Assembly: GCA_019310865.1 (NCBI GenBank)
Contig: JAFDDL010000016.1
Span: 1-29,164 of the forward strand
DNA from: Deltaproteobacteria bacterium
Lineage (GTDB): Bacteria; Desulfobacterota; Desulfobacteria; Desulfobacterales; JAFDDL01
Direction: 5' to 3'
DNA: 29,164 bases
Below, piece after piece: positions 1,676 through 29,164 of this stretch. A model generated the notes under the pieces. It was given only the letters and a program-made list of their open reading frames with translations, searched no databases and had not been told where the DNA came from. Within the stretch, counting starts at the first letter, position 1; every line of letters begins with the position of its first letter. The translations under genes were made by a program, and so were the position numbers.

Positions 1676-1982
1676 GGTGTGACCCTCCATTTGATCTTTA
1701 AGTTGTTAGCAATCAGCTTAGCATCGTACAACGCTTTCCGGCAACACTTAATTAGTGCCCATCCACAAATGGCCAATTTGCTCGATATCTGCGTTACGCG
1801 AAAAGTTTTATCCTCGGAGGTAAGCGAAGACTCCGATATCAACCATATGCCTGCGGTAAAATTTTTCGCAAGCCTTGATCTCAACCAGATAAGCGCAGAC
1901 ATCGAATTTGCCTATTTCTGGATGGGCACTAATTGAAGGATAGGTCCTTTATTCGAAACAAGGTTGTGGGGATCAGGTGTGG
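1676..1982. other. intergenic region with a palindromic element
   Basis: This 307-bp gap separates the amidohydrolase from the dehydratase-like gene, both on the minus strand. Most of it (1750-1934) is the miniature inverted-repeat element described separately. The remaining 74 bp next to the dehydratase start hold its ribosome binding site. I could not find a convincing promoter there; weak TTG-containing boxes only. Confidence 0.6.
1750..1934. repeat. MITE-like palindromic element, long form (185 bp)
   Basis: The ends are perfect 16-bp inverted repeats: AATTAGTGCCCATCCA at 1750-1765 and its complement at 1919-1934. Complementarity continues inward with small gaps (for example GCGAAAAGTTTTA near the left centre against its counterpart near 1850-1870), so the whole element could fold into one long hairpin. 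If the core ends at AGTG/CACT, an AATT duplication flanks it, consistent with insertion. It encodes no credible protein. A shorter relative with the same ends is at 13748-13802, which argues for a mobile family rather than a local hairpin. Confidence 0.75.
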
Positions 1983-3329
1983 TTATTGGCCGTCGCCTGC
2001 ATCCGGCTTGCTGGGTACTTGCCCTTTTTCCTCTGCTTCATCGTCCAGAAAGCGATCGAGCCCGAACAGACGCTTTGGATTGTCGACAAACAGCCATGTT
2101 GCCACTTCCCTGGCACGCGACAAACTGATAGACCCGTCTGTAACCTTCTGCGCGAGTGACGCTGCAACGTTCCGGCGGGCCAGAAACTGGTGGCCATAGA
2201 CGCCATCCACAAAGCAGTAATCCCCTCCGAACGCGCTGATCTTGTTGGCGGGCACAGCATCCAGCCACTCGACAAGTGCGCGCCGAGCCGCTTCCGGACT
2301 GATGATGTGGCCCCAGCACATGTTGATGAAAACATTTCGAAAATTCTTAGCCAAGGTGCCGAGTTCCATCACGTAGGGGTAGCCCATGTGGAACACGTCA
2401 AATCGCGCGTTGCGATACTCCAGAAAGAGGTTTGTCAGGAGTGTTGGATTGGCGTCATAGATAACGTTGCCATAGCCTTCCTGTATACCCGTATGTATTT
2501 GACATACGAGTTTGTTGTCGTCGGCCACACGGCATACAAAATGCATCATCCAGTCAGACAGCACCTTTGCAACCTTGATCGGCGGACGTCGCTCCGGTAG
2601 ATTACAGTCGTTGAACAGTTCATTGAAAGCGTGCTCGGCGTTCGCATATGTGACCTTGTCGAAACGAAGACTTCGGTGATAAGCCAAGTCAACCTTCAGG
2701 CATACGACGCGTGTTCGTCCGTTTACATTCTTTTCAATGTGCCGACGTGTGACCGCCATCCAGTCGTCAAGGGTATGCACTTCAATCCCCACTTCTGATC
2801 CAGCGGTGCGCATTTGGCTGTAGTGGGCAGGGCAGACAAAACCGTCAATTTTCATGGCGAAGACGAATGAGTCGTCTGTCTCTTGATTCGGGATAGGCGT
2901 TAAATCGGATATCGACACCGCGATGTCTGATTTGTCTCTCAATACGAATCGGTAATGTCCGCCGCGCCTCCGGGCCTCCTTGAACAGTCCGTCCAGCCGC
3001 TCGATCGTTTGGCCGTTGATGGACTCGATCCCATATATGTCTCTGGCTGTAAAGGCGAGGGCCCGCCCGTAACCAGTGCTCTCGGCCGCACGCCAATAGG
3101 GTTCGACAATCTTCCACCGCCGCGTGATGTCTTGCCGACTATCTCGAACTGTTGAGAGGTCGTTGTCGGTCAAACCCGCGGACACGAGATCGCACGAAAA
3201 ATAGTGTAGCAGCCACTCGGCAAGGACATCCGTGTCTTTCGGACGTTCTGACTCGAGCGGCAAATGCTCGTGTGTATCGACTATTTTCAGCGATTGCGTG
3301 TGATCAAGCAAACTGTTGTACGCGTCCAT
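1983..3329 (-). CDS. metal-dependent amidohydrolase superfamily protein
   Basis: This 448-residue TIM-barrel hydrolase resembles the Amidohydro_2 / uronate-isomerase-like branch. Visible metal-site candidates are H20 and H22 (VDTHEH), H279 (QIHTG), H314 (FHMGYP) and D370 (GGDYCF), with K212 (LKVD) a possible additional ligand. The C-terminus carries the frequent DNPKRLFGL signature. The second in-frame ATG (3329) is chosen because AAGGAG sits 6 nt upstream; the first ATG overlaps that site. It lies 111 bp downstream of the TonB-dependent receptor gene and is probably co-transcribed with it. The family covers hydrolases, decarboxylases and isomerases, so the reaction cannot be assigned; hydrolysis of an amide or ring bond of the imported substrate would fit the neighbours. 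Confidence 0.8.
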   Translation of the reverse strand: MDAYNSLLDHTQSLKIVDTHEHLPLESERPKDTDVLAEWLLHYFSCDLVSAGLTDNDLSTVRDSRQDITRRWKIVEPYWRAAESTGYGRALAFTARDIYGIESINGQTIERLDGLFKEARRRGGHYRFVLRDKSDIAVSISDLTPIPNQETDDSFVFAMKIDGFVCPAHYSQMRTAGSEVGIEVHTLDDWMAVTRRHIEKNVNGRTRVVCLKVDLAYHRSLRFDKVTYANAEHAFNELFNDCNLPERRPPIKVAKVLSDWMMHFVCRVADDNKLVCQIHTGIQEGYGNVIYDANPTLLTNLFLEYRNARFDVFHMGYPYVMELGTLAKNFRNVFINMCWGHIISPEAARRALVEWLDAVPANKISAFGGDYCFVDGVYGHQFLARRNVAASLAQKVTDGSISLSRAREVATWLFVDNPKRLFGLDRFLDDEAEEKGQVPSKPDAGDGQ

Positions 3330-3440
3330 GCAGTTCTCCTTCATGATGTAACGGATACCGGGTTAAGGGCTAGCGCAGGAAAGCGAACCCTACCGCTGCT
3401 GCAAGGCTTATTGCGTTCGTTCAGTGGTGTCAATAAAAAG

Positions 3441-5762: not shown

Positions 5763-5784
5763 TGGCTTTCTCCTGGGTTAAGGT

Positions 5785-8442
5785 TTATGTTAGCGTTCTT
5801 GTCACCAATTCATGTAATCCTTTTGAAAGTGTTGAGGATTCCAGAAAACGGTCTAATTGTTTTTGTATGAGGTGTTGTCTTTCCGAATCAAATTTGCGCC
5901 ATCGGACGAAGTCACTTTTTCTAAAAAACCAGGCGGATCCCACGGGATTAAAGGAATCGAAAAGCAGGATCACATCGGTGAAGTATTGATAAGCATTCCC
6001 ACTTTTATGGTGAAAGTTCCTGAAGTTAAGCATGAAAAACCAGGCCATAAGAGAGCGGACCCGATCCACTCTGGTAATATCAAACGCCGGGTGTTCGGCC
6101 AAAGCTTTTACTTGTTCCAGCGCGTTGGGCAACCGGGTTGAGGCCTGTACCTGAAACCATTTATCAATTGCCAGGGGATCCGATTCCCAACGCCTGTAAT
6201 AGGCCGTTAAGGCTTTTTCCCGTTCAGGGACATCAAAATTATTTAGAATCGTCAAGGCGGCCATCATATCCGTCATATTTTTACCGTTGACGGCTTGATC
6301 AAAACACAGATCGACGATTTTTGGGTCCTTGAGCGCCATCAAGTATCCCAGGCAGACGTTTTTCAGATGTCGACGCGCCCTGGAAATCCGATCCGGAGCG
6401 TATTCTCCGGTTTCATCGTTCTCTTCGTAACACGTTAAAAGGTCTTTCTTGAGATGCGAAGCGAGCTGCTGGATAACAAAATCGCGTGCACGGCAAATTC
6501 CCTCCACGTCAATGATATCCATCTGCTCGGACAGGTCCTTTTCAGAGGGAAACGTCAGCATCTCGGCAACGAAGTAGGGATCCTGCTCCCTGCTGTTGAT
6601 GAGGTTTCGCATCACTTCGATATACTGCTGGTCCAATCCCATGTTGCGTCCCCGGGCATGCTGCGCCATCCGTTTCATAATGAAACGGGATATATAACAT
6701 TGGGCTGCATCCCACCGGGAAACCAGGTCCGAATCATGTGCCATCAGGAAAATAAGTTCTTCGTCGCTATAGTTATATTCCAATCGGACCGGGGCAGAAA
6801 ACCCCCTGAGGAAAGAGGGTACAGGCTTTTCGTCAATGTTTTTAAAGCGAAAGGTCGTTATGTCGTTACGGATCTCCAATGTTTTTGATGTGGGGTATTC
6901 TCCGGGAGGTTCGTTTTCCAACTGCAACGCCAGCTCCCGGCCGCTTTTGTCCAGCAACCCCATCCGGAAAGGTATGTGAAGCGGCTTTTTCAGACCTGTA
7001 TTCGCCGACTGTGGATAATACTGTTTAATGGTCACCGAATATGTTTTATCGGCTGCGTCGTATTCCGTTGTTACCTTCAAATGGGGTGTGCCCGGCTGAT
7101 GATACCAAAGGCGGAATTGTTTAAGATCTTTGCCGGAAACTTCTTCCATTACCGGAAGAAACGCTTCGATGGTGACCGCCTGACCGTCATGCCGCTCAAA
7201 GAACAGATCCGATCCCTTTTTGAAATTGTCTTCTCCTATTAGAAGATGAAGCATACGAACCAGCTCGCAGCCCTTGTCGTAAACGGTTAACGTATAAAAA
7301 TTGCTGACCTCCCGGTAGGACTTTGGTTGAACCGGGTGTGCGCTGGTTCCTTCATCCTCCGAGAACTGCTTTTCCCGTATAATTCTCATTCTGCCGATTC
7401 TTGAAACCGAAGTGCCGTATAAATCCTCCTCAAATTGGCTATGCCGAAAGGTCGTAAATCCTTCCTTTAGACATAATTGAAACCAATCTCGACAGGTCAC
7501 GCGGTTTCCGCTCCAGTGATGAAAATATTCGTGCGCAATATTGATACGGATTTGTTTGTAGTCATCATCGGTGGCCGGGGCACTGCCTTGCGCAACCACA
7601 TTGACGGGATTGAAAATATTCAATCCCTGGCTCTCCATTGCGCCAAAATTATGGTCCGAAACAACGGCAATATTGTAAAGATCCAGAAAATACTCTCTGT
7701 TATAAGCTTCTTCATCCCATTTCATGGCCACTTTCAGCGATTCCATCGCCCATTGTGTTTTGTTTATTATCGTGGCATCGGCAAAGATATTGAGTGTTAT
7801 TTGACGACCGGACCGGGTCGTGAAAAAATCCGTCAGCCGTTCGAATTTTCCGGCCACCAGCGCAAAAAGATAGCTGGGTTTTGGTATTGGATCTTCCCAT
7901 CGGACCCAATGGCGCCCATCTCCCAATGATCCCTTCTCAACCCGGTTTCCGTTTGACAACAAAACCGGATAGGCGTCAAGATCCGCATCGATCGTGACCG
8001 TATAGACGGCGAGGATGTCCGGCCTGTCCGGAAAGTAGGTCATTTTGCTGAATCCATCCGGCTCACAATGGGTACACAAATTTCCTTCGGTTTGGTATAA
8101 TCCGAAGTTGGATGTGTTTTCGCTTGGCCGGACGACCGTTTTTATCTCCACCTTAAACTCATTCGGTACATCATTGATCACCAGCGTTTCTTTATCCAGT
8201 TGGTAGTCGCCGGATTCAAGCCGGTGCCCATTGAGTTCGATCCACTTCAAATCCAACTGCCTGCCGTTGAGCACGAAAGCATTATCGTTATCCATTCGTC
8301 CCGGATTCGCAGCCCCTCGGAGGGTTGATGTTATTTCCGTTACTTCAGCGTCCAGGTCAAACGTGAGATCAACGGATCTGATCAGAAACGCCGGGGGTTT
8401 ATAATCTTCTAAACGGGTTATCGTTTTATCTTGTTCGGTCAT
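5785..8442 (-). CDS. pepN: M1 family aminopeptidase N
   Basis: This 885-residue zinc aminopeptidase removes N-terminal residues from peptides. The zinc site is complete: HEYFH at 304-308 and the third ligand Glu327 exactly 18 residues later. The exopeptidase motif reads GAMES (267-271) instead of the usual GAMEN, and the TVYDKG stretch contains the expected catalytic Tyr. The length matches E. coli PepN (870 residues). The start at 8442 is chosen because CGGAG lies about 7 nt upstream and the protein then begins at the N-terminal beta domain; an upstream start would add 27 unrelated residues. It lies 98 bp after the S9 peptidase gene and 22 bp before the TonB receptor gene. No signal peptide is visible, so it is probably cytoplasmic. 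Confidence 0.93.
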   Translation of the reverse strand: MTEQDKTITRLEDYKPPAFLIRSVDLTFDLDAEVTEITSTLRGAANPGRMDNDNAFVLNGRQLDLKWIELNGHRLESGDYQLDKETLVINDVPNEFKVEIKTVVRPSENTSNFGLYQTEGNLCTHCEPDGFSKMTYFPDRPDILAVYTVTIDADLDAYPVLLSNGNRVEKGSLGDGRHWVRWEDPIPKPSYLFALVAGKFERLTDFFTTRSGRQITLNIFADATIINKTQWAMESLKVAMKWDEEAYNREYFLDLYNIAVVSDHNFGAMESQGLNIFNPVNVVAQGSAPATDDDYKQIRINIAHEYFHHWSGNRVTCRDWFQLCLKEGFTTFRHSQFEEDLYGTSVSRIGRMRIIREKQFSEDEGTSAHPVQPKSYREVSNFYTLTVYDKGCELVRMLHLLIGEDNFKKGSDLFFERHDGQAVTIEAFLPVMEEVSGKDLKQFRLWYHQPGTPHLKVTTEYDAADKTYSVTIKQYYPQSANTGLKKPLHIPFRMGLLDKSGRELALQLENEPPGEYPTSKTLEIRNDITTFRFKNIDEKPVPSFLRGFSAPVRLEYNYSDEELIFLMAHDSDLVSRWDAAQCYISRFIMKRMAQHARGRNMGLDQQYIEVMRNLINSREQDPYFVAEMLTFPSEKDLSEQMDIIDVEGICRARDFVIQQLASHLKKDLLTCYEENDETGEYAPDRISRARRHLKNVCLGYLMALKDPKIVDLCFDQAVNGKNMTDMMAALTILNNFDVPEREKALTAYYRRWESDPLAIDKWFQVQASTRLPNALEQVKALAEHPAFDITRVDRVRSLMAWFFMLNFRNFHHKSGNAYQYFTDVILLFDSFNPVGSAWFFRKSDFVRWRKFDSERQHLIQKQLDRFLESSTLSKGLHELVTRTLT

Positions 8443-12421: not shown

Positions 12422-13679
12422 TCAGCCTTCAAACTTCCCCGCAAAGCGGGGCTCAGGTTCTTTGGATTGCCCAGTCAGCTGTTCAAGGATTTCTGCATGG
12501 CGCTTCTTGGTTAAAGGGAAAAACCATAAAATAATCCCGCCGATCACGCTCAGGATGGTCGGGAAGATAAGCACGGTGAACAGAAGCCCCGAAATAGCTG
12601 TCTGACTATTCTCAACATGAAACCGATACCCAAAAATATTAATCACATAAAACCCAATCGATCCTCCCAATGCGAAGTTCGCTTTAACCATCAATGCGGA
12701 AAGGGCCGAATACTTACCCGCCCGATTGATACCGCTTTTCAACCGGTCTTCATCGACAATATCCCCCATAATCGTTATGGGTAGCAGGGTGGTGGCACCC
12801 GATAGAAGGCCAAAAATGAAGGCCGAAAAAAGTACGGGTATGAAAGCCCCCGGTCCCGGTGGCCACAAAAGCAGTCGCTAAAACAGTGGAGAATTTACTG
12901 CCGATTTTTAAGTACCCATCTATCCAGATATACAGCGTCGACATCATCGCGCCCTGACCGATTCCCAACATCAAGTACCCGATGGTGAAATGCCAGAACG
13001 TTCTGTTTTTCTGAATTGATTTTAATGAGGAAATCAGTGTCGCTGCTTTTCCTGAGGCATATATTCCTTTTGGAACCGTCGTGACCGTTAATAGCGTGAA
13101 CAGGGGCAATGTAACGGCAATCATAATTCCAATCGCTTTTAGCACGTCAGCATTGTATTCACTTGTTTTAAAAATCGGGTACATGATCAGTGGAAACAAC
13201 ATAAATACCATGTTTCCAAACTGTCCGGCGATTTGGTAAAAAGAAAAAATCTTTGATCTTTCTTTGTAATCACTGGAAAGTTCGATTCCCCAAGCGTTGT
13301 AAGGAACAAGCTGGATTGTCATCATGAAATAAACCAGTAGCAGACAGGATAAAAAATAAAAAAATCCAGCGTCCGGCGACGGTGTAAAGATCAGGTACAC
13401 AGGGACCACCATCCCGAACGATCCCAGTATCATCCAGGGTTTTCGATGTCCCAGGGGCGTCTTGATCTTATCGGACAGATACCCGATAGTCGGGTCGGTC
13501 ACGGCATCAAACAGACGACCGATAAACAGGGCTGTACCAATGGCGGCCATACTGACCGTGGAATGCTTGGCATAGTAGCCGGGCAATACGGAAAGAAGCG
13601 GCATCATCAACATGGAAACCCAAAAAAACGGCAGGGAGAACGATATTAATGTGATTATGGAATGTTGATTCTCTTTCAT
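12422..13679 (-). pseudogene. GPH-family (MelB-like) MFS cation symporter with a frameshift
   Basis: Two overlapping frames encode the two halves of one glycoside-pentoside-hexuronide:cation symporter. The first (from ATG 13679) holds transmembrane helices and the GPH signature DPTIGYLSDKIKTPLGHRKPW. The second, up to the stop at 12422, holds the later helices and the diagnostic GDIVDEDRLKSG stretch. The break maps to a run of five C (12847-12851, five G in the coding strand): removing one G joins the halves as ATGTGAFIPVLF, giving about 419 residues. This could be an inactivating mutation, a slippage variant or a sequencing error. Related transporters carry sugars or other organic solutes with Na+ or H+. 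Its position between regulator and amidase suggests inner-membrane uptake of the locus's substrate. Confidence 0.85.
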
Positions 13680-18527: not shown

Positions 18528-20552
18528 ATGAAACAAGATCGCGAATACACTGATTATCTGGAGAGAATTATGCACAAAGTTAGCAAAACTTGGCGTCGTA
18601 ATGGTCTGCAAACATTTGTTGCTCTTATCTTGTTACTGACCGGGGGCTTCTGGCTCACCCCGTCGACGCTGCACGCAGATCCGTTCCTCTTTGTCTCACT
18701 GCCGGACACGCAGGTCTACTCTGAGAATCGATTCCCGGGTGACGGACGTTTTCCGGCTGTAACCGATCCGCGAGGAACAGGTGCAATCTTCTTTGACCAA
18801 ACCCAATGGATAGTCGACAACGCCGATGATTGGGGTATTCGGTATGTTGTCCACCTCGGGGACATCGTTGAAAACGGGGACAACCTCGACGAGTGGGCAC
18901 GGGCCAAAGCAGCCATGGACATCCTGCTCCAGAACGACATTGCGCATGGAACCGTCATGGGAAACCACGACAGCAATCACGGCCCCGACTATCAACAAAA
19001 TTATCTGGACAACTTCGGCCCGTCGGTGTTTGAGGGACGCTCATGGTACCGGGCCTCCTCACCGGGAGGCGGGGCCAATTTTCAGTTGCTCGAGCACGAA
19101 GGGGAAAAGATTGGGTTTCTCAACCTCAGCATCGATCAGCCGCAGTCGGAAGTGGATTGGGCGGACGAAATTATCAAGAACAACCCGGATACAATCTTCA
19201 TCCTCGGCACCCATCGTTACCTTTACGACTTCAAACTCGCCGGCGGCCGCTACGGCGAAACCGTCGACAGCCCCTTGGGTCCATTGGTCATCCAGGACGA
19301 CTTCGAGGATGGCGTGGTTGCTCCCAACACGGGTGAGGCGCTTTTCAACAAACTTGTCAGCCGGCATCCCAACATTCTGATGATTCACGCCGGTCACTTC
19401 CATAGCGAATGGGTGCGTCTTGACGGCCGGAATAATGCCGAACAGACTGTCATTCAGATCCTCACCGACTACCAGAGTACCCGTAACGGTGGCGACGGCT
19501 GGCTACGCATTTACGAGATGGATTTTGACAATAACACTTTCAAATTCGAGACCTATTCCCCGACGCTCGACCGCTATCGCACGACTATTGACCATTTTGT
19601 AGAGGCTATCTATATCGCCTATGGGGGGCGCGAGGAAATCATTGCCGCGCTGGGCATCACGGAGGCGACGTATTTCGTTCTCCTCGAGAGGCTGAAGGAC
19701 GTGCCCGAGGCACAAGACGGATTCCTCTACCAGCACCCGGATTTCGACGAACCTGACGAGCAGGCGTATTACAACCAGTATCTAAGCGATCTATTCCATG
19801 GCCAAATCCCCCCGGAAGTCGGTGACATTGCCGACTGGGAAGGCTTATGGCTGGAAGCCTTTGCCGCCAATCCGCAAAACCCCCAGGATTTCAGTGACTG
19901 GGTTCGCTCTCCGAGCGGAATCATGGAAATTGACTACTCTGCTTATGCAAACGATGCTGGGGGCGGTGATGACATAAAGGTAACAGCACCCAATGGTGGT
20001 GAAAACTGGAAGACGGGCGAAAAATACACAATCAGCTGGGACCCCGGTCAGCTGCAGGAAGATGTACAGCTTTTCTTATTTAAAGATGGAAAATATTATG
20101 CATTCATTAAAAAAATGTCCAATGACGGCACCTACGAATGGACCATTGCTGATTCTATAGAAACAGGTGATGATTACCAAATCCTTATCAGAACGGTTTC
20201 CAATTCGGAAAGGGATTTTAGCGATGCCGATTTTTCTATCAATAACGAAGGCGGAATAATCGAAGATGGAATAAAGGTAACAGCACCCAATGGTGGTGAA
20301 AACTGGACGACGGGCGAAAAATACACAATCAGCTGGGACCCCGGCCAGCTGCAGGAAGATGTACAGCTTTTCTTATTTAAAGATGGAAAATATTATGCAT
20401 TCATTAGAAAAATGCCCAATGACGGCACATATGAATGGACCATTGCTGAATCTATAGAAACAGGTGATGATTACCAAATCCTTATAAAAACGGTTTCCAA
20501 TTCAGAAAGGGATTTTAGCGATACCGATTTTTCTATCGATGTGTTTCAGTGA
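18528..20552 (+). CDS. secreted calcineurin-like metallophosphoesterase with two KNH-type domains
   Basis: This 674-residue protein is probably exported and hydrolyses phosphoesters with a two-metal centre. A signal peptide spans about residues 15-50 (core TFVALILLLTGG, cleavage likely after LHA). Metal motifs follow: PDTQ (59-62, Gln where the classical DxH has His), GD (111-112), GNHD (145-148), GTH (227-229) and GHFH (289-292). The C-terminus has two copies (about 483-572 and 582-671) of a beta domain beginning VTAPNGGENW, matching the Kre9/KNH pattern seen in bacterial surface proteins, where it may bind or present the enzyme at the cell envelope. Two starts are possible: 18528 with GGGAGGT, and an in-frame ATG at 18570 with GGAG 6 nt upstream, which gives a more normal signal peptide. 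It stands alone on the plus strand with its own promoter; its substrate is unknown. Confidence 0.87.
   Translation: MKQDREYTDYLERIMHKVSKTWRRNGLQTFVALILLLTGGFWLTPSTLHADPFLFVSLPDTQVYSENRFPGDGRFPAVTDPRGTGAIFFDQTQWIVDNADDWGIRYVVHLGDIVENGDNLDEWARAKAAMDILLQNDIAHGTVMGNHDSNHGPDYQQNYLDNFGPSVFEGRSWYRASSPGGGANFQLLEHEGEKIGFLNLSIDQPQSEVDWADEIIKNNPDTIFILGTHRYLYDFKLAGGRYGETVDSPLGPLVIQDDFEDGVVAPNTGEALFNKLVSRHPNILMIHAGHFHSEWVRLDGRNNAEQTVIQILTDYQSTRNGGDGWLRIYEMDFDNNTFKFETYSPTLDRYRTTIDHFVEAIYIAYGGREEIIAALGITEATYFVLLERLKDVPEAQDGFLYQHPDFDEPDEQAYYNQYLSDLFHGQIPPEVGDIADWEGLWLEAFAANPQNPQDFSDWVRSPSGIMEIDYSAYANDAGGGDDIKVTAPNGGENWKTGEKYTISWDPGQLQEDVQLFLFKDGKYYAFIKKMSNDGTYEWTIADSIETGDDYQILIRTVSNSERDFSDADFSINNEGGIIEDGIKVTAPNGGENWTTGEKYTISWDPGQLQEDVQLFLFKDGKYYAFIRKMPNDGTYEWTIAESIETGDDYQILIKTVSNSERDFSDTDFSIDVFQ
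19974..20540 (+). repeat. in-frame tandem duplication of a KNH-type domain
   Basis: Two 270-bp units, 19974-20243 and 20271-20540, repeat with a 297-bp period (99 codons). I count 12 differences, about 96 percent identity, with a 27-bp linker between them. Such high DNA identity indicates a recent duplication or ongoing gene conversion. Confidence 0.93.
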
Positions 20553-20623: not shown

Positions 20624-21244
20624 TTACTGCACGCGACGTAAAAAACCCAGCGTTTCCACAATTTCGATCTCTTCAAACAGCCCGGACGCACAGGCCATTT
20701 TCCATATTTCATAGGGCGCTTGCCCGCCTTGGGAGGGATCCGGGAATATATCATGAATGGCAAGTATGCCGTTAACGACCATATGGCCCGCCCACGAGCG
20801 GTAGTCGCACAATGCCGCTTGATGGCTATGACCGCCATCTATAAATACCATTGCCAAAGGGGTGACCCAACCACGAGAGGCTACCGAAGTGGGGGCTACG
20901 ATTGGAATGACGGTATCCTCGAGTTTTGCCCGCCGAATGGTTTTTTTAAACTCTTTGAAACTGTCTAACCGCCCAATTTCCGGATCGTACAGATCGGGAT
21001 CATGATATTCTTCGCCCGGTTGATGTTCCTCGGATCCGAGATGGTGATCCACTGCGTATAACACCGATTGGTTTTGTTTACACGCCGTGCCCAGATAAAC
21101 GGTTGACTTGCCGCAATAGCTGCCAACTTCCAGGCAGGGCCCCAATCGAGAGGCGTCGGCAGCATGCCGATACAGCGCCTCGCCCTCTTTCTGATCCAGA
21201 AATCCTTTTACGGTTTCCATATCAATGGGTAATTCGATTGCCAT
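20624..21244 (-). CDS. class I SAM-dependent methyltransferase
   Basis: This roughly 206-residue protein has a Rossmann-type SAM fold of the Methyltransf_24 kind. LEVGSYCGKSTVYL is motif I, AVDHHLG follows strand 2, and MVFIDGGHSHQAALCDY is the acidic strand-4 motif found in this group. It ends within a fold-complete length. Two ATGs are possible: 21256 and 21244; the latter has GGGGAT just upstream and is preferred weakly. It is the last gene of the right operon, 45 bp after the LarA-like gene. The methyl acceptor is unknown; relatives act on small molecules or glycans. Confidence 0.75.
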   Translation of the reverse strand: MAIELPIDMETVKGFLDQKEGEALYRHAADASRLGPCLEVGSYCGKSTVYLGTACKQNQSVLYAVDHHLGSEEHQPGEEYHDPDLYDPEIGRLDSFKEFKKTIRRAKLEDTVIPIVAPTSVASRGWVTPLAMVFIDGGHSHQAALCDYRSWAGHMVVNGILAIHDIFPDPSQGGQAPYEIWKMACASGLFEEIEIVETLGFLRRVQ

Positions 21245-21289
21245 GATTATCCCCATTATCTTTTAGGGTTCGACCGGATTGATGTTATC

Positions 21290-22543
21290 TTATTCATCCG
21301 GAAAATACTGAATGGTGGCATCGGTAAATACATTTACATGGGTGCCGGAGCCGTTGTTGTTTTCAAGCAGGTCCATAACCGCTTCCCAATTATCCGCCCA
21401 TGACACACGGCCATATCCACCGAACCAGTCTTCATCGGCACGGCTCGGGTACGGGCTGTATATGATAATATTGCCAATGTCGTCCGTCATGCTTGTTCGA
21501 TCAGGACTCCAGAGCTTTCCGCCGATATATTTACCGAAACTGCCAATCAGGTAATGGGTAATCTGCCCCATGGGCGTATGAGAAACAACGACGATATCCC
21601 CTTTGGGTTTAAGGCTCTTGGATCCAAAAAGCAAGGCAATGGCGGCTTCGCAAGCTTTGAAATTCGCGTTGACCACCGCCACATCGGCGTTGGGGATCAG
21701 TCGGGTCCCGTTGAGTTTTTTGGCGATCTCCACCCCTGCATAATGAGCTTCGATGGGATGACCGACAAACAAATCGATGGTCTCACAACGACTGTTTACC
21801 AGGGCATCGACGACCAGGTCAAGACCGGCCATGGCACAGACTTCTTCCATTTCCAGGCGCATGATATTGCCGTCGAATCTGCCCAGACCGTCAACCGGAT
21901 TCAGCCCTTTCCCGAATAGGTCGGTAGCGGATAATAGGTGGTTGCCCAGAACGGTTTCTGCCGACGAAACACCTGGAAACAAGATTTTACCACCACCCCC
22001 GAAACCATTGAACGGGTGGGGAACGATGCTGCCCATTCCGATCTTCAGATCGCATTTCATTATTTCGGAGTTGACGGACACCTCGGTATTTCGACTGGTC
22101 TTGCCCAAATTGTCACAGTTTTCGTACGGATTGTGGTTGAACACCGGATATTTAGCAACGACCGCTTTTCCCAGTTTCTTTACAAAATCGACGCGGGTGT
22201 GGGCACCATGATTGCCAAGGGAGCAGATAAAGCGAATCCGGTCGTCTGTGACACCGGCCACTTTCAATTCTTTTAGCACAAATGGCACCAGTTCATACAA
22301 CCGGGTTCCCCGGCTGATGTCATCAAAGATGATGACAACATCCTGTTTACCTTTGGCCAGCTCTTGAATCCGGGAAGCACCGATGGGTTCTGCAAACGCT
22401 TTTTCCATCGCCGCTTTGGACATGGGTTCCATGGTATCGGCAGGGCTGTCGCAGACTTCCACCCGCCAATCGTCCGGAAAGCTGATTTCAATATCCTTCT
22501 CATCAAACCACATACCCTGGGCAAGACGAATACTATCGTGCAT
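21290..22543 (-). CDS. LarA-family (DUF2088) nickel-pincer racemase/epimerase homologue
   Basis: This 417-residue protein matches lactate racemase LarA, whose nickel-pincer nucleotide cofactor interconverts stereoisomers of 2-hydroxyacids by hydride transfer. Cofactor and catalytic residues align well with my recollection of the known enzyme: R78 (DDISRGT), H112 (GNHGAHT), H176 (VPHPFNG), K186 (GGGGK, the lysine carrying the cofactor) and H202 (GNHLL). The His176-Lys186-His202 spacing of 10 and 16 is identical to the LarA H174-K184-H200 spacing. GGAGGT lies 6 nt before the ATG. It follows iorB by 15 bp in the operon. No larB, larC or larE cofactor-synthesis genes are in the window. The substrate is probably not lactate but the 2-hydroxyacid feeding the oxidase and oxidoreductase next door. 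Confidence 0.85.
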   Translation of the reverse strand: MHDSIRLAQGMWFDEKDIEISFPDDWRVEVCDSPADTMEPMSKAAMEKAFAEPIGASRIQELAKGKQDVVIIFDDISRGTRLYELVPFVLKELKVAGVTDDRIRFICSLGNHGAHTRVDFVKKLGKAVVAKYPVFNHNPYENCDNLGKTSRNTEVSVNSEIMKCDLKIGMGSIVPHPFNGFGGGGKILFPGVSSAETVLGNHLLSATDLFGKGLNPVDGLGRFDGNIMRLEMEEVCAMAGLDLVVDALVNSRCETIDLFVGHPIEAHYAGVEIAKKLNGTRLIPNADVAVVNANFKACEAAIALLFGSKSLKPKGDIVVVSHTPMGQITHYLIGSFGKYIGGKLWSPDRTSMTDDIGNIIIYSPYPSRADEDWFGGYGRVSWADNWEAVMDLLENNNGSGTHVNVFTDATIQYFPDE

Positions 22544-22558
22544 AAATACACCTCCGTT

Positions 22559-23173
22559 TTAGTGAATCATCTGCATGCCTTTATCAAACGCTTTAAGATT
22601 TAATGCCACTTTATCTTCGCTCATCATAACCCCGAGCACCGCCTCAAGCAGCTCCCGTGTCAAGGGCAGCACACCGGTAGCTGCCATGGCCCCCACCATT
22701 ATCACGTTACTTAGAATTGAATGTCCCAGCTTCAGGGCTTCTTCCGTAGGATCGATAAACCAGGCAATCTCGGAAAGCGCCTCGATCCATTGCCGGATAT
22801 CTTCCGGCGACGGATACACCTGCTCTCCGCAGATAACGCCGAGCGGATGAATCGGCCGCGTATTGCACAGAACCTTGACGTTCGAGTTGCCGTAATCTTT
22901 CAGCACCCGAAGTGTTTCCACCGGTTCCAATGACACCACCATATGGGCGTTTCCTTTGGGAATTTGTGGAGAGAGGGAGGCCCCCGATGAGAGCCTCATA
23001 TGACTCATCACGGGACCACCTCGCTGGGAAGCACCAAAGGTTTCACCAATGGTAACGGAAACGCCCTGTTGAGAAAGCATATTTCCCACCAATCGGGAAG
23101 CCAGCACGTTCCCCTGGCCACCAATACCGGTAATAATCAGATTAAACGGGTCGGATGACAATTGACTTCTCAT
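22559..23173 (-). CDS. iorB: indolepyruvate ferredoxin oxidoreductase, beta subunit
   Basis: This 204-residue subunit of the 2-oxoacid:ferredoxin oxidoreductase gamma-domain family partners IorA in oxidative decarboxylation of aryl-pyruvates to aryl-acetyl-CoA. It contains the GIGGQGNVLASRL and FGASQRGGPVMSHMR signatures and has the family's usual length. Its start lies 3 bp beyond the iorA stop, and its ribosome binding site (AAAGGAGG) is inside the end of iorA, so the two are translationally coupled. The LarA-like gene follows 15 bp later. Confidence 0.93.
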   Translation of the reverse strand: MRSQLSSDPFNLIITGIGGQGNVLASRLVGNMLSQQGVSVTIGETFGASQRGGPVMSHMRLSSGASLSPQIPKGNAHMVVSLEPVETLRVLKDYGNSNVKVLCNTRPIHPLGVICGEQVYPSPEDIRQWIEALSEIAWFIDPTEEALKLGHSILSNVIMVGAMAATGVLPLTRELLEAVLGVMMSEDKVALNLKAFDKGMQMIH

Positions 23174-23176
23174 GAT

Positions 23177-25123
23177 CTATTGCGCCTCCTTTGTTTGAAT
23201 TGCCCCGGAAGGACAGACGGATGCACAGACGCCGCATCCGCTGCAGAGCACCTCATCGATATGGGCCTTTTGATCCACAGGATCCCATATGAGCCCGGGG
23301 CACTTGAACACACGCGTACACAGACGGTTACAACCACACGTTTCCCCAAGACATCGCGATTCATCCACGCTCACCTCATACTGTTTTTTACCTTTTTTTT
23401 CAGGACTCAGCGCGCATACCTGTCTCAGCACCAGCACGTTTACACCATCTGTTGCTTTCAGCAGAGACAAAAGCGTCTCCCGGGTGTCATCGATGTCAAA
23501 AGGATCGCAAATCTTCACCCGGGCACCGATGGCCTCGCAAACCGCCGGAATGTCTACGGCAGGCGCCGCCTCTTTCCTGACGTTCATGGGCAGGCCCGGA
23601 TGGGTCTGGAATCCGGTCATGGCCGTGCCGCTGTTGTCCAGCACCACAAGGGTTATGGGTGACTGGTTGTGCACCGCATTCACCAGTGCCGGGATCACCG
23701 AATGGAAAAAGGTACCGTCACCACAGACCGCCACGACCGGCTGATTCATCCCGAATTGCGTCAGCTTGGCAAACCCGCCGGCCACACCGGCACCGGAACC
23801 CATCGAATGATTGGTCTTCAGGGTAAAAAAGCCCGAAGGACCCAATCCCAAGGTATAACAGCCGATATCGCCACAGACGAAGCCCTTTCGGTTGTCCATG
23901 GCCATAGCGTTGTTGATGGACCAGAAAGAGGCCCGATGCGGGCAGCCGGGGCAAAAGGCCATATCCCGTTCCGGAATTCCCCCGAAGGGGATGGTGTCGT
24001 TCACCTTGCTTACGTAATCCGCCTGGCGCGTTACCAATTCACATCCGAGTATCTTTGCCAGGGAACTCGCCACGATATCCGGGTTCAGTTCCCCTATCGT
24101 CGGCAGGCTGCCATCAATTTTCCCATGAAATGTCTTCACCCCGATCCGTCCGGCCAATCCCATGGCCAGACTTCGCAGATTGTCTTCCATAAAGGAAAGG
24201 CCCTCTTCCACCACCAGTACCTTATTGGTTCGGCTTAAATATTTTTCCAATAATCCGGATGGCAGCGGCCAAGTGGTACCCAGTTTCAGCACACCCACCC
24301 GATCATTGGCCCCCAGCATCTGGATCGCTTCCCGGCTGTAGAGATTGCCGGCAGAGCTTGTAATCACCAGCAACTCGGGAGCATCCGGTCCATTATACGT
24401 GTTAAAGGGAGAGGTTTCGAATATCTCGGCCGCTTTTTTGAGCTTGCCCTGCTGGCGCTGATGCAAGAATTCGAGAAGCACCGGCACGGTGATCACCGGC
24501 CCCTCCATCTGCTCCAGAAACGACCCTTCATAATTGAAACGGGCCGATGCGGTGTCGGCCGGAAGATCTCCAAACACCACGTTGCCGCTGGCATGGGATA
24601 GGCGTGTGACACTGCGGACCATCACGACATTCCGGATCTCTTCGGAAAGCTCAAATGCCCATCGGGTCATATCTTTTGCTTCTTGAAAATCACCGGGCTC
24701 TATTAACGGGAACTCCATCATTTTGGCATAATGTCGTGCGTCGCCCTCATTGGAGCTCGACAATCCGCCGGGATCCTCACACATTACCAGAACCATCCCC
24801 CCCCGGGTTCCGTAGAGCGCCAGATGGAGGAGAAAGTCGGCCGCCACATTCACCCCCACCTGCTTCATAACGCACATGGACCGAAGCTCTGCAAACGATC
24901 CGGCGGCAGCCACTTCCAGGGCAACCTTTTCATTCACCGACCACTCCACATAGAGATTGCGCTTTTTTGCCACCTTGGCCAATTCCGTTATAATTTCAGA
25001 AGACGGTGTGCCCGGATACCCGGCCGCCACACTCACGCCGGCTTCCAGCGCCCCGCGGGTGATGGCCTCATTTCCCATTAACAGATGCCGTGCACCTATC
25101 TGTTGTTGTGCGATGACTGTCAT
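23177..25123 (-). CDS. iorA: indolepyruvate ferredoxin oxidoreductase, alpha subunit
   Basis: This 648-residue thiamine diphosphate enzyme oxidises aryl-2-oxoacids with CoA and ferredoxin. The N-terminal part holds the pyrimidine-binding domain (AAGYPGTPSSEI), the middle the FCPGCPHRASF stretch and the thiamine-binding CGDGTFFH...LDNSGTAMTG motif. The C-terminus has two [4Fe-4S] motifs: CSGCGVCASVCP is standard, and the other has the irregular CLGETCGCNRLC arrangement common in IorA. The length is normal for IorA. Its ATG overlaps the FrhB-like gene's stop in an ATGA. AGGAGG precedes the start. Arylpyruvate specificity comes from family assignment only. Confidence 0.95.
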   Translation of the reverse strand: MTVIAQQQIGARHLLMGNEAITRGALEAGVSVAAGYPGTPSSEIITELAKVAKKRNLYVEWSVNEKVALEVAAAGSFAELRSMCVMKQVGVNVAADFLLHLALYGTRGGMVLVMCEDPGGLSSSNEGDARHYAKMMEFPLIEPGDFQEAKDMTRWAFELSEEIRNVVMVRSVTRLSHASGNVVFGDLPADTASARFNYEGSFLEQMEGPVITVPVLLEFLHQRQQGKLKKAAEIFETSPFNTYNGPDAPELLVITSSAGNLYSREAIQMLGANDRVGVLKLGTTWPLPSGLLEKYLSRTNKVLVVEEGLSFMEDNLRSLAMGLAGRIGVKTFHGKIDGSLPTIGELNPDIVASSLAKILGCELVTRQADYVSKVNDTIPFGGIPERDMAFCPGCPHRASFWSINNAMAMDNRKGFVCGDIGCYTLGLGPSGFFTLKTNHSMGSGAGVAGGFAKLTQFGMNQPVVAVCGDGTFFHSVIPALVNAVHNQSPITLVVLDNSGTAMTGFQTHPGLPMNVRKEAAPAVDIPAVCEAIGARVKICDPFDIDDTRETLLSLLKATDGVNVLVLRQVCALSPEKKGKKQYEVSVDESRCLGETCGCNRLCTRVFKCPGLIWDPVDQKAHIDEVLCSGCGVCASVCPSGAIQTKEAQ

Positions 25124-26163
25124 TTTTCCTCCTGTTTGGCCTTTTCCAAAGCCCTCTTTTTCTTGTTGTCGGCTCCCAGTGTCAGATGTTCCAAACCGGC
25201 TGCCGGGAAATCACCCAATACCAGATATCCCTCTTTAACTGCTTTTTCCACCAGCTTTTCACCCCGTTGGGTTCTAATGATCAAGGTATTCCATTCCGCC
25301 TTACCTTCAAAAGCACCGACTGACAGATCCGCCCATTCGGCTGTCATATCCGGACAGGTGAAACATCCATTGGGAACCAGCGACCGGATTTCATCGAGGG
25401 GAACTTCTACTTCGGTATCCCCGGTTTTAATGATAAAAACCTCAGCCGGTGGTGGTGGCACGTCCATACCGGTAATAGCGTCGATGTCGATTTTCCCTGA
25501 AAGAAAATCGAGGAATTTTCGGGTATCCAGGGCCCAGGTACAAAAGAGCCCTATGGTCAGGGCCACAGGATCTTTGAAGTTTTCCTTTTCGAGCGGATTA
25601 TTTCGCATCTGCGCCACACCGGTCAATTGGCAGGCAGTGCCCACCACCCCCAGCTTTTCATGACCGTCCGCTGCGGCCTGGTTCAGGCAGGAAACCGTCG
25701 GTGCAGCCATGTACTTGGTAGATGCACAATTAACGACATCACCGGATTTGGTAACCAGTTTCGGCATGGGTATTAGCCCTTCATTGTCGGTCAAGACGGC
25801 GCCCTCTACCAGCCCGCTCTCAAGCGCCAGGGTCATCAACGCCGATACGGTCCCCCCGTTCTGAAATTTACCTGATCTCATTTTTTCGCCGGCTTTGGCG
25901 GCCGTAATTCGACGATATATTCCCAGGGCTTCACCGTTATAAGGCTTACCGAAATAGTTCCGGGCCAGTTGATCATAATCGACCCCGGTTTTCGGGCAAT
26001 GGGCGTAACAACGCCCTCTTTCAAGATCGCAATCAAACAGTTGGGCAACCTTCCCCTCATGGGCCTTGAAATAGGGACACACCCCCATACAGGCACCACA
26101 AACAGTGCAAAGGTCCTGGGCCAGGACCTGCTCGGAAAGTTCTTTGGAACCTAATATTTCCAT
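25120..26163 (-). CDS. FrhB-like coenzyme F420 hydrogenase/dehydrogenase beta-subunit family protein
   Basis: This 347-residue protein belongs to the FrhB family of flavin and Fe-S proteins that pass electrons between ferredoxin-type donors and a flavin or F420. An N-terminal ferredoxin-type cluster is visible (C19, C22, C25, C29 in CTVCGACMGVCP), with extra cysteines near 45, 52 and 56, and the family stretch VGTACQLTGV. The start at 26163 is supported by AAAGGAGG about 7 nt upstream; upstream in-frame residues look non-coding. Its stop overlaps the iorA start by 4 nt, so it is tightly coupled to IorAB, suggesting it handles their electrons. F420 use is not implied, since no F420 genes are present. 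Confidence 0.85.
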   Translation of the reverse strand: MEILGSKELSEQVLAQDLCTVCGACMGVCPYFKAHEGKVAQLFDCDLERGRCYAHCPKTGVDYDQLARNYFGKPYNGEALGIYRRITAAKAGEKMRSGKFQNGGTVSALMTLALESGLVEGAVLTDNEGLIPMPKLVTKSGDVVNCASTKYMAAPTVSCLNQAAADGHEKLGVVGTACQLTGVAQMRNNPLEKENFKDPVALTIGLFCTWALDTRKFLDFLSGKIDIDAITGMDVPPPPAEVFIIKTGDTEVEVPLDEIRSLVPNGCFTCPDMTAEWADLSVGAFEGKAEWNTLIIRTQRGEKLVEKAVKEGYLVLGDFPAAGLEHLTLGADNKKKRALEKAKQEEK

Positions 26164-26218
26164 TAAATAACCTCCTTTATTTTTCTGTGGAGAACCGGAT
26201 CCGGAGAGCCGGGATCCC

Positions 26219-27430
26219 CTACTCGCTTTTAAAACCATATGCCCGTGCCAGCATTGCCATGGGGTGGATCACATCAATGTCGGCCAGGGCTGAATTCAAA
26301 TAGGAGCGGCAAGAGGGACATTGGGTAACGACCGTCTTCACGCCGGTGTTTTGAATATCTTCGATCTTCGGATTTCGAATGGTTTCAGATAACGACTTAA
26401 ACTCAGTAAAAAAAGTCCCGCCGGCCCCGCAGCATTTCTCCGGTTCTTCCATTTCCACCATCCGGGCGTTTGGAATTTTCAGCAATATTTTCCGGGGGGC
26501 ATCGTTGAGGCCGGGTGTCCAGGCGCCGTGGCACGGAATATGATAGGTGAACGGCGCAATGGGTTCAGTTGGGTCGGTGGTAAGGCCAACTTCCACCAGG
26601 TAATCGGTCACCTCTTTTATTTTGGCGGAAACAGCCGTTGCCTTTTCGTACAGTGAATCGTCCCGGGGAAAGAGTTTCGATAATTTTTCCTTCAGGGTCA
26701 TACCACAGGAGGTGCAGTCTGTCAGAATAACATCCGATTCAATCGCCGCCAGAATGTTCAGATTGCTTTCCATCATTTGCCTGGCCGTTTTGATGTCACC
26801 TTCTGCCAGGGCGGGGATACCGCAGCAGACAAGACCGTCCGGGACCGTGACCGTAATTCCGTTTTGGGCCAAGACCTTCATAACGGCATCACCGGTATCC
26901 GGATAAAGGGTGTTGGTGGCACAGCCGACGAAATAGACCGCTTTGGCCCTGACTTCTCCGGTGGGTTCATAGGTGCCGGCATAACGATCTTCAAAGGCTT
27001 TTTTCGATGATGTCGGAATCTCTTTCGGTATTATCCCCGCTGTTCTGGCAAGGCCTTCCAGTTTTCGCATAGCACCTGTCACGCCCCGTTTTTCCATAAA
27101 CCGCTTGAGCAAGATGCGTTTGGGCAGTTGCATGCGTTTTCCGCCATATAACCGATAACGGGCGGCGATGACAATCTCGTCGACCGGTATGCTCGCCGGA
27201 CAGGTTTGCGTACAATTCGAACACAGCAGGCACCGGTTTATAATCTCATGAACGCGTTTGGACTGCGGCAATGTGTTGTTCAGCAACGATTCTCTGATCA
27301 CCATCATCCGGGATCGGGCAACATGGGTTTCCAGAAGGTCGGCCAGGTAGACGGGACAGGTGGCCTCACAGAAAGCGCAGTGAGAGCATTTATCCATCCA
27401 TTCCGTGTAGGTTTTCAAATCGCCCAACAT
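26219..27430 (-). CDS. GlcF/LutA-like Fe-S protein with CCG domains
   Basis: This 403-residue protein is the electron-accepting partner of a GlcD-type oxidase. Two [4Fe-4S] motifs are at the N-terminus (C15, C18, C21, C25 and C67, C70, C73, C77). Two CCG (heterodisulfide-reductase D-type) modules follow: GCATNTLYP...VCCGIPAL...CTSCGMTLKE, then PCHGAW...EKCCGAGGTFF...CPSCRSYLN. The start is the ATG at 27430, 2 bp after the GlcD-like stop; a TTG two codons earlier overlaps that stop. Together with its neighbour it should oxidise a 2-hydroxyacid and hand electrons to a membrane quinone or another Fe-S carrier. It lies 55 bp before the FrhB-like gene. Confidence 0.92.
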   Translation of the reverse strand: MLGDLKTYTEWMDKCSHCAFCEATCPVYLADLLETHVARSRMMVIRESLLNNTLPQSKRVHEIINRCLLCSNCTQTCPASIPVDEIVIAARYRLYGGKRMQLPKRILLKRFMEKRGVTGAMRKLEGLARTAGIIPKEIPTSSKKAFEDRYAGTYEPTGEVRAKAVYFVGCATNTLYPDTGDAVMKVLAQNGITVTVPDGLVCCGIPALAEGDIKTARQMMESNLNILAAIESDVILTDCTSCGMTLKEKLSKLFPRDDSLYEKATAVSAKIKEVTDYLVEVGLTTDPTEPIAPFTYHIPCHGAWTPGLNDAPRKILLKIPNARMVEMEEPEKCCGAGGTFFTEFKSLSETIRNPKIEDIQNTGVKTVVTQCPSCRSYLNSALADIDVIHPMAMLARAYGFKSE

Positions 27431-27432
27431 CG

Positions 27433-28818
27433 TCAATCACCCTGGACCCATATCTTGCCGGGATTCATGATACCCGCCGGATCAATCGTATTCTTAATCG
27501 CCTTAAGCAGCGCCACCTGCCGCTCCCCGAGCTCATCTTCTAGAAACGACGCTTTATGTAACCCAATGCCATGCTCACCGGAAATGCTGCCCCCGAGTCT
27601 CAAACCGGTATGAACGATTTCCCTGACGGCGGTCATGGCCTTTTGATACGTTGCCTCGTCGGTATCCGACATCAGGATAACGGGATGAACATTGCCGTCG
27701 CCGGCATGACCGGCAAATCCGATCATCAGGCCTATTTTGGCCGATAGATCTACCATGGCGCGAATAAACTCCGGAAAACGATCCCGCGGCACCGTGACAT
27801 CTTCGTTAATCACTTTTTTCATAACAGAAACCATCAGGGGATATAGCATCGAGCGTGCTTTCCAATAACTGTCCGCTTCTTTTTTGCCTGCAGCGACCCT
27901 GACGTCGATTGCCTTGAGGTGTGTGCAAACCGCTTCGACCCTCTTGGATTCTTCTGCAATTTGAACTTCCAAACCATCCAGCTTGATAAACAGGAAAGCG
28001 CCGCCCTCGGTGGATAGCGGCGGGGTCAGGTACTCGTTGATAAAACCGATTGCCGCCTGGGGGACATATTCGAGCATGGCGGGAACAATTCCGGCGGCGA
28101 TGATGGCGGATACCAGATCCGATGCCTGCTCCGGTGTTTCGCAGGTGACGATGATGGTTTGATCGGCCGGTGGTTTCGGCAACAACCGTGTGGTAACTTT
28201 GGTAATAACCCCCAGGGTCCCTTCCGATCCGGTCAACAGATGGGTCAGATCGTATCCCACAGCCTGCTTGACACAGGACCCGCCTGTATTGATGATGGAA
28301 CCATCGGGCAAAACAACTTCGAGTCCCAAAACATAGTTGGAAGTCGTTCCGTATTTCACGCCATGGGGCCCGCCGGCCCGGGTGGCCACGTTTCCGCCAA
28401 GGGTGCAGACGGTCATACTCTGGGGATCCGGCGGGTAAAAGAGATTCTGCTTTTCAACCGCCCGGTGATACCGCGACACCACGACGCCGCATTCCGCCTT
28501 ACCCGTCAGGTTTCCCGGGTTGATCTCAATAATTTTGTTCATTCGCTTTGTATCCAGCACGATGCCACCCTGGACGGGTGTACATCCGCCGGACAGCCCG
28601 CTGCCCGCTCCCCGAGGTGTTACCGGTATTCGGTTATTATATGCATAGGTTACCACCGTGGCGACATCGTCGGTGGTATTCGGCAAAACAATGGCCTCCG
28701 GCTTTCCCCTTGCATAATCATGGATTGCATCCGATTCGTACGCCATGAGATCCGCCGGATCCGTTTTAACCATGGCCTTTCCGACCAATCTTGCAAGATC
28801 TTTTTCTAATCCTTTCAT
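27433..28818 (-). CDS. GlcD-like FAD-linked 2-hydroxyacid dehydrogenase
   Basis: This 461-residue enzyme oxidises a D-2-hydroxyacid (lactate, glycolate or an aryl-lactate type) to the 2-oxoacid. The FAD-binding domain (PCMH type) occupies about residues 35-215, with PRGAGSGLSGGCTP, CTLGGNVATRAGGPHGVKYG and LTGSEGTLGVIT; the C-terminal cap carries the GFAGHAGDGNVHP and SGEHGIG motifs of this family. The length matches GlcD and bacterial D-lactate dehydrogenases. The ATG at 28818 is preferred over the TTG just before it; GAGGA lies close upstream. It overlaps or abuts the GlcF-like gene and starts 13 bp after the IclR gene, so it is the first enzyme gene of the operon. Confidence 0.94.
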   Translation of the reverse strand: MKGLEKDLARLVGKAMVKTDPADLMAYESDAIHDYARGKPEAIVLPNTTDDVATVVTYAYNNRIPVTPRGAGSGLSGGCTPVQGGIVLDTKRMNKIIEINPGNLTGKAECGVVVSRYHRAVEKQNLFYPPDPQSMTVCTLGGNVATRAGGPHGVKYGTTSNYVLGLEVVLPDGSIINTGGSCVKQAVGYDLTHLLTGSEGTLGVITKVTTRLLPKPPADQTIIVTCETPEQASDLVSAIIAAGIVPAMLEYVPQAAIGFINEYLTPPLSTEGGAFLFIKLDGLEVQIAEESKRVEAVCTHLKAIDVRVAAGKKEADSYWKARSMLYPLMVSVMKKVINEDVTVPRDRFPEFIRAMVDLSAKIGLMIGFAGHAGDGNVHPVILMSDTDEATYQKAMTAVREIVHTGLRLGGSISGEHGIGLHKASFLEDELGERQVALLKAIKNTIDPAGIMNPGKIWVQGD

Positions 28819-28831
28819 CAATTCCTCACAT

Positions 28832-29164
28832 TTACACTGCTTGCGCTTGCATCGCTTCGGGGCGATATCCCATCCGGCGGGATATTTCTATGCCGGTCTG
28901 AATCAGATTGGCCACAACCTCGGGCAGCAGTTTATTGACCAGGATGTCGGGGGTTCCGGACAAACTGATCGCCCCCATCGCTTTGCCCGTAAAATCAAAT
29001 ATGGGCACGGCAATACATCCAATGCCCATAATCAACTCGCCCCTCTCGGTGGCATACCCGTTCTCCTGTGCCTCCTTAAGACACTGACGCAATGTGTGCT
29101 TATCGGCAATGGTGTTGGGATTAATTGGGATCAGGGGTATTTTATCAAGATAATCTTCGATTTG
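28832..29164 (-). CDS. IclR family transcriptional regulator, C-terminal part (runs off window)
   Basis: The last 110 residues of an IclR effector-binding domain are visible; the frame stays open to the window edge, so the helix-turn-helix and start are outside. Recognisable features are ENGYATERGELIMGIGCIAVP, FDFTGKAMGAISLSG and the amphipathic C-terminal helix. IclR proteins usually bind aromatic or carboxylic-acid effectors and control adjacent catabolic genes, so this protein probably regulates the operon it heads, 13 bp before the GlcD-like gene. Confidence 0.9.
   Translation of the reverse strand, partial: QIEDYLDKIPLIPINPNTIADKHTLRQCLKEAQENGYATERGELIMGIGCIAVPIFDFTGKAMGAISLSGTPDILVNKLLPEVVANLIQTGIEISRRMGYRPEAMQAQAV

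Follow-up and report, generated by a model that had tools for sequence, protein, structure and literature searches.

We analysed a 29,164-nucleotide stretch (the window) of contig JAFDDL010000016.1 from a bacterium of the Desulfobacterales. Its last 8 kb carry a row of minus-strand genes in the order IclR (truncated at the window end), GlcD, GlcF, FrhB-like, IorA, IorB and LarA-like, followed by a methyltransferase. The six genes from GlcD to LarA, which point to a route from a 2-hydroxyacid to an acyl-coenzyme A (acyl-CoA), are the subject of this report. The row consists of:

28832..29164, minus strand: IclR-type regulator, C-terminal part only, the gene being cut by the window end (PF01614 IclR_C, 65 bits)
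27433..28821, minus strand: GlcD-like FAD-linked 2-hydroxyacid dehydrogenase, start TTG 28821 or ATG 28818 (PF01565, FAD_binding_4; PF02913, FAD-oxidase_C)
26219..27430, minus strand: GlcF-like iron-sulfur subunit with two CCG domains (PF02754 in two stretches; PF13183, Fer4)
25120..26163, minus strand: FrhB-like protein, a predicted flavo-iron-sulfur adaptor (FrhB_FdhB_N/C domains)
23177..25123, minus strand: IorA-like thiamine diphosphate-dependent 2-oxoacid oxidoreductase, large subunit with a C-terminal ferredoxin domain (POR_N, TPP_enzyme_C, Fer4)
22559..23173, minus strand: IorB-like subunit (PF01558 POR)
21290..22543, minus strand: LarA-like protein of an uncharacterised subfamily (Lar_N domain, divergent C domain)
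20624..21256, minus strand: Methyltransf_24 protein, 33 bp 3' of LarA (PF13578, 73.9 bits)

A sequence-only reading had named these genes and given five spacings between them; all the genes are present with the domains expected of them, and the five spacings are correct. With ATG 28818, ATG 27430 and ATG 26163 taken as the starts of GlcD, GlcF and FrhB, the distances are 13 bp (IclR-GlcD), 2 bp (GlcD-GlcF), 55 bp (GlcF-FrhB, not listed by that reading), an overlap of 4 nucleotides (FrhB-IorA), 3 bp (IorA-IorB), 15 bp (IorB-LarA) and 33 bp (LarA-Methyltransf_24). An AAGGAGG motif precedes the FrhB ATG. Judged by profile scores, all six assignments hold at the family level only, each falling below curated NCBIfam cut-offs. 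GlcD scores 438.6 bits against TIGR00387 (glcD; cut-off 567.9), and its nearest solved structures are 9qgz, a glycolate oxidase, and 7qh2, LctD. Since the score is under the cut-off and the row holds no separate GlcE-like gene, we rejected a plain glycolate oxidase. For GlcF, the best NCBIfam matches (LdhH, TfrB, GlpC and GlcF) are each under their cut-offs. IorA and IorB share the complete domain set of indolepyruvate:ferredoxin oxidoreductase (POR_N, TPP_enzyme_C, ferredoxin and POR gamma), but differ from it in having an FrhB-like gene and in missing the equivalog level (IorA, 593.2 bits against 650.9 for TIGR03336 IOR_alpha; IorB, 156.2 against 238 for NF005323 and 146.1 against 205.8 for the IOR_beta equivalog).

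The order GlcD-GlcF-FrhB-IorA-IorB-LarA recurs, identical, in four other genomes. Three of these cases (L145, L147 and L148), found by FrhB searches that were blind to LarA, come from the phylum of a Desulfobacteraceae metagenome-assembled genome (MAG), and their proteins are 38-63% identical to those of the window. The fourth (L017), found by a LarA-alignment scan of genome contigs among the best 80 of 225 relatives, is a Dehalococcoidales MAG that has the full order at 29-50% identity, with GlcD truncated at the contig end. Identities of 29-63% across the four cases argue against a recent copy. The sequence-only reading had staked its operon on the order being kept in related genomes, and in these four it is kept. 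In L145, L147 and L148 a DctPQM (TRAP) uptake system stands directly before the row, and genes resembling those for CoA ligase, thiolase and enoyl-CoA hydratase flank it. Moreover, the five-gene row GlcD-GlcF-FrhB-IorA-IorB without LarA is found at L121, L123, L124, L125, L135 and L152, with one additional open reading frame called between GlcF and FrhB at L121.

The link between LarA and FrhB-IorA exceeds chance. The 65 FrhB-IorA loci are spread over 60 genomes, of which 28 contain a total of 37 LarA matches (E up to 1e-25). A split at E 1e-70 assigns 21 of them, with lower E values, to the type of the window; one weaker match, in G661 (E 5.7e-49), is also nearly full length. Ten of the 21 lie within 10 kb of FrhB-IorA, compared to none of the other 16. 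About 0.1 would be expected by chance (20 kb, mean genome 4.5 Mb), which gives a binomial P of ~4e-18, or of 3e-12 if the chance rate is raised fourfold. Thus, the operon is real and conserved. The sequence-only reading had given 20624..29164 as the span of its candidate operon. This stands for the six-gene row, but not for the methyltransferase (20624-21256), which has no counterpart among the matches listed at other LarA or FrhB loci; we rejected it as a member of the module on this ground, and it is probably a passenger. Promoter-like and terminator-like sites (13 found against a shuffled mean of 8.5, standard deviation 3.4, and 16 against 9.9, standard deviation 2.9) were not used. Plasmid records searched at near identity gave no match, and a PADLOC run on LarA and the methyltransferase gave no result.

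We then consider the surroundings of FrhB. Searches were made at E 1e-40 (147 genomes), 1e-95 (395 and 389 genomes, overlapping) and 1e-60 (52 genomes); 80 FrhB places were examined at length, with the listed places G089, G016 and G578 left out. Genes were labelled by their best BLASTP match (E 1e-12) to the window proteins and 19 relatives' proteins, some of them named by eye, and some loci are cut by contig ends (e.g. L117, L122, L142 and L170). IorA is adjacent to FrhB on the same strand at 65 of the 80 loci. The sequence-only reading had chained the genes into 2-hydroxyacid, 2-oxoacid and acyl-CoA, and the partners of these 65 FrhB-IorA loci (within 10 kb, same strand) bear it out: GlcD at 9, LutB at 5, either of them at 14 and LarA at 10. 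Further partners are an IlvD or galactarate/altronate-type dehydratase (8), IclR (9) and DctM (10). The 15 loci without an adjacent IorA, most of which lie away from contig ends, have GlcD at 2, LutB at 1 and LarA at none. The constancy of FrhB-IorA and the variable partner counts suggest that FrhB-IorA-IorB is a stable core around which front ends that yield 2-oxoacids are exchanged. LutABC replaces GlcDF with LarA kept at L141 and L155, and also at L107, where LarA lies beyond TRAP genes. At L155 an IlvD-like gene beside LutABC and LarA is split over two overlapping frames (2587-3745). IclR stands directly before FrhB at L129 and L130 (51-56% identity).

On a tree of 73 IorA sequences, which includes rows chosen for a nearby LarA rather than for FrhB, the presence of LarA changes nine times, eight of the changes being forced by well supported branches; the LarA link was therefore made or lost repeatedly. 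GlcD changes 8 times, LutB 4 times and dehydratase 9 times on the same tree. Independent pairs, used to ask whether LarA goes with an oxidase or a dehydratase, gave a median p of 0.25, the sample being too small to decide. Trees were made by a quick method, and two IorAs, from L064 and L005, have very long branches that join each other. At L131 FrhB-IorAB is directly preceded by a protein (5777-7804) that combines Fer4 and CCG domains with a part resembling nitrate reductase gamma. This protein, of which a weaker relative is found near FrhB at L137, could be a membrane electron outlet. An opposite-strand pair at L131 resembles EtfAB by eye.

The FrhB-like protein consists of an N-terminal ferredoxin-like part with seven invariant Cys and an FrhB domain with four invariant Cys, and it has the FrhB fold with its FAD/4Fe-4S region. 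Its closest relatives (72% and 71% identity) are found in 2 of 52 genomes from the phylum of G003, a SAR324 cluster bacterium, whereas among 389 genomes of the class to which the Desulfobacteraceae MAG G010 belongs, the best value is no higher than 62%. Genes for F420 were searched for in relatives' genomes, with controls matched: cofE was over its cut-off in 0 of 43 (0/27 and 0/16; one partial 25-bit match in G004) and cofD in 0 of 28 (one partial 30-bit match in G072). With no such gene over cut-off in these relatives, we rejected an F420-dependent enzyme. The FrhB-like protein seems instead to serve IorAB as an adaptor that works without F420. An FrhB-type subunit of the same build is described, in the accessible part of the report (PMC11493965), for the F420-reducing carbon monoxide dehydrogenase and the formylmethanofuran dehydrogenase of Ca. 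Ethanoperedens (8RIU, 8RJA), where it is attached to an enzyme that forms CO2 at low potential. The FrhB of the window, in contrast, neighbours IorAB, and the relatives searched gave no F420 genes over cut-off. The FrhB-IorAB unit without F420 is one of the parts of the system that look new.

The LarA-like protein has the Lar_N domain and the LarA fold. Its residues D75, R78, H112, H176, K186 and H202 are equivalent to D72, R75, H108, H174, K184 and H200 of LarA, and these six cofactor-binding and catalytic positions are identical in 93 of 93 LarAs, a set selected at 33% identity or more to the LarA of the window, so that the shared residues are partly due to choice. The C domain, in contrast, is divergent, with conserved N292, K296, E299 and H330. 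In LarA, Gln295 and Lys298 bind the carboxylate and Tyr294 binds the 2-hydroxyl, according to the part of the source available (PMC11851776). In all 93 sequences the columns of Tyr294 and Gln295 are empty (MAFFT), the Lys298 column holds no Lys and the helix stretch is 4-5 residues shorter. These are sequence alignments, limited to fragments of LarA, Mar2 and Sar, and they place the gap differently: Lys298 faces I302 in both MAFFT and hhalign, while Tyr294 and Gln295 fall in a deletion by MAFFT and opposite C298 and E299 by hhalign. The sequence-only reading had assigned this protein the known activity of its family, an assignment that the scores and the missing residues do not support as it stands. 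Against the characterised NCBIfam equivalogs it scores 210, 188, 168, 166, 27 and 25 bits, with cut-offs of 500, 540, 460, 462, 740 and 500, respectively. Among ten subfamily relatives scanned, none reaches any characterised equivalog cut-off; all ten are under those of the four main models, the matches ending at profile positions 276-317 of 415-426. Thus, the protein shares its fold, cofactor-binding and catalytic residues with the lactate racemase superfamily (LarA and the LarAH groups), but differs in its C domain and belongs to no characterised group by score. We found no characterised member of this subfamily, which, with its gene partners, is another part that looks new.

A tree of the 93 LarA sequences has the association with IorA changing 11 times and groups the window's LarA with L001-L004, none of which is near IorA, apart from L145-L148 and L017. 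The six-gene set was therefore probably assembled on more than one occasion, or else the original LarA has been exchanged. L010 has two subfamily LarA genes in tandem, and in L029 and L031 two such genes face each other.

Gene families, their order and conservation, the cofactor-binding and catalytic residues of LarA, the FrhB-IorAB linkage and the absence of F420 genes over cut-off in relatives make a catabolic operon, running from 2-hydroxyacid to 2-oxoacid to acyl-CoA, the best reading (probability about 0.6). As we infer its direction and step order, the GlcD-GlcF pair would oxidise one enantiomer of the 2-hydroxyacid, presumably the D form as in the GlcD/D-lactate dehydrogenase family, to the 2-oxoacid. 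IorA-IorB, with thiamine diphosphate, iron-sulfur clusters and CoA, would then decarboxylate this oxidatively to acyl-CoA and CO2. The low-potential electrons from IorAB would pass to the FrhB-like flavo-iron-sulfur protein, acting as a built-in adaptor that does not use F420, and the final acceptor may be a quinone or NAD, reached via GlcF or FrhB. LarA, with a nickel-pincer cofactor, would invert C2 of the other enantiomer or epimer and so make both forms usable.

Several observations weigh against this route. In the stretch seen, 55 of the 65 FrhB-IorA loci have no LarA and 51 have neither oxidase, and the 15 of 80 FrhB loci without an adjacent IorA include L130, whose FrhB is 71% identical to that of the window. 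The nearest relatives of the window's LarA (L001-L003, 68-69%) lie among genes that are unrelated by eye, with none of these partners, and LarA is thus not tied to this pathway. LarC matches are found in 7 of 10 relatives' genomes in one set, in 18 of 20 in another and in 9 of the 10 genomes that have LarA in the cluster; the match is absent, however, in those of L017 (a six-gene case), L003 and L076, which are MAGs and maybe incomplete, and since some genomes that have no LarA match possess LarC too, it discriminates little. Finally, the subfamily lacks the carboxylate- and 2-hydroxyl-binding Gln295, Lys298 and Tyr294, and its reaction may differ.

The substrate is best read as a 2-hydroxyacid that yields a 2-oxoacid suitable for an Ior-type enzyme. 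An aryl-lactate, proposed by the sequence-only reading, is a tentative first guess, made plausible by the name of Ior and by Desulfococcus multivorans DSM 2059, which grows on phenyllactate and forms IorA3B3 on phenylpyruvate, as described in the accessible part of the report (PMC5109826). The same part assigns genes neighbouring iorA3B3 to the conversion of phenyllactate to phenylpyruvate. The phenylacetate/phenylpyruvate clusters of D. multivorans described there, with TRAP uptake, CoA ligase, dehydrogenase, hydratase and thiolase genes, resemble the surroundings of L145, L147 and L148; the window differs in that no TRAP or beta-oxidation genes are present in the part seen. The aryl-lactate is one option only, since sugar-acid-type dehydratases occur in LarA-IorAB clusters of L005, L076, L109 and Dehalococcoidia. 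Next in line are hydroxyacids of a branched or aliphatic kind and dihydroxyacids.

These dehydratases suggest another explanation, which we consider unlikely but take most seriously among the alternatives: a module for a non-aromatic sugar acid or dihydroxyacid, in which LarA would epimerise a polyhydroxy acid at C2, and the 2-oxoacid for the Ior-type enzyme would arise by dehydration in the sister clusters and through GlcDF here. At L076 and L109, LarA stands beside IlvD/Edd and galactarate/altronate-type dehydratases as well as IorAB, and at L005 it occurs with IlvD and FrhB-IorAB. Six Dehalococcoidia loci (L026, L033, L040, L043, L052 and L079) have the row galactarate/altronate-type dehydratase-LarA-x-IorA, in which IorB was labelled in four of six by one labelling and in six of six by another; x in L026, L040 and L043 resembles a 2-hydroxypentadienoate hydratase-type protein by eye. 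IlvD-like genes follow LarA in L145 and L147, too. However, no sugar-acid-type dehydratase is among the main genes of the window, whose sequence past its end is unseen, and none is labelled near L148 or L017 (the contig of which begins inside GlcD). Moreover, Ior activity of Pyrococcus is described on aryl-pyruvates in the accessible part of PMC5109826.

Somewhat less probable still is that the LarA-like protein is not a racemase at all and uses its nickel cofactor for another hydride transfer, the operon then being GlcDF plus FrhB-IorAB with a linked, separate reaction. The loss of Gln295, Lys298 and Tyr294, the new conserved Lys/Glu pair and the shortened helix in 93/93 sequences fit such a change, as does the failure of all ten scanned members to reach the four main characterised cut-offs; LarA-homologue groups without such residues may do other hydride chemistry, as suggested in PMC7583248. 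Yet both catalytic His and the equivalents of Asp72, Arg75, Lys184 and His200 are invariant, the model is LarA-like along its full length, and the gene partners are hydroxyacid enzymes. Because 2-oxoacid oxidoreductases are reversible in principle, the operon might run backwards: an acyl-CoA would be reductively carboxylated, the resulting 2-oxoacid would feed amino-acid synthesis, and GlcDF and LarA would handle overflow hydroxyacid. However, GlcD and LutB systems normally oxidise hydroxyacids and the TRAP uptake, CoA-ligase-like and beta-oxidation-type genes beside the row in L145, L147 and L148 point to breakdown, which makes this very improbable.

How much of the catabolic operon is new has to be stated with care. 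In the accessible parts of the literature, some LarAH groups have already been described with COG0247 and COG0277 as neighbours (oxidoreductases/dehydrogenases, to which GlcF and GlcD correspond), and a phenyllactate-Ior cluster is in print (PMC5109826); the sequence-only reading, which knew of no such described arrangement, went too far in this respect. A linkage of LarA to FrhB-IorAB did not appear in the accessible parts of PMC7583248 and PMC11770544. The words F420, glcD and lactate racemase are absent from the main text of the D. multivorans paper, and the open literature searched yielded no report of a lactate racemase together with indolepyruvate ferredoxin oxidoreductase.

Elsewhere in the window, an MFS_2 transporter gene (12422-13679, minus strand) is split over two overlapping frames that match PF13347 positions 2-271 and 313-427, which is a frameshift or assembly slip. 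A metallophosphatase-like protein (18528-20552, plus strand) has two near-identical Kre9/KNH-like repeats at its C-terminus. Finally, an HpaB-family protein (179-1690, minus strand; TIGR02309, 154 bits, cut-off 480) adjoins amidohydrolase and TonB-receptor genes.

For the LarA subfamily, the catabolic module supplies a testable pathway context. A bolder version of it, which we think improbable, is that an uncharacterised nickel-pincer branch, its substrate site remodelled, supplies the usable stereoisomer to a modular FrhB-IorAB machine for 2-oxoacids with interchangeable front ends (GlcDF, LutABC and dehydratases), and that the F420-free FrhB merges electrons of high-potential hydroxyacid oxidation and low-potential decarboxylation into a single outlet by flavin-based confurcation. 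More generally, our results suggest that the FrhB-type subunit, known as an archaeal F420 module, commonly accompanies IorAB in bacteria that gave no F420 genes over cut-off, and they predict that such anaerobes can use hydroxyacids derived from amino acids, or similar ones, in both mirror-image forms.

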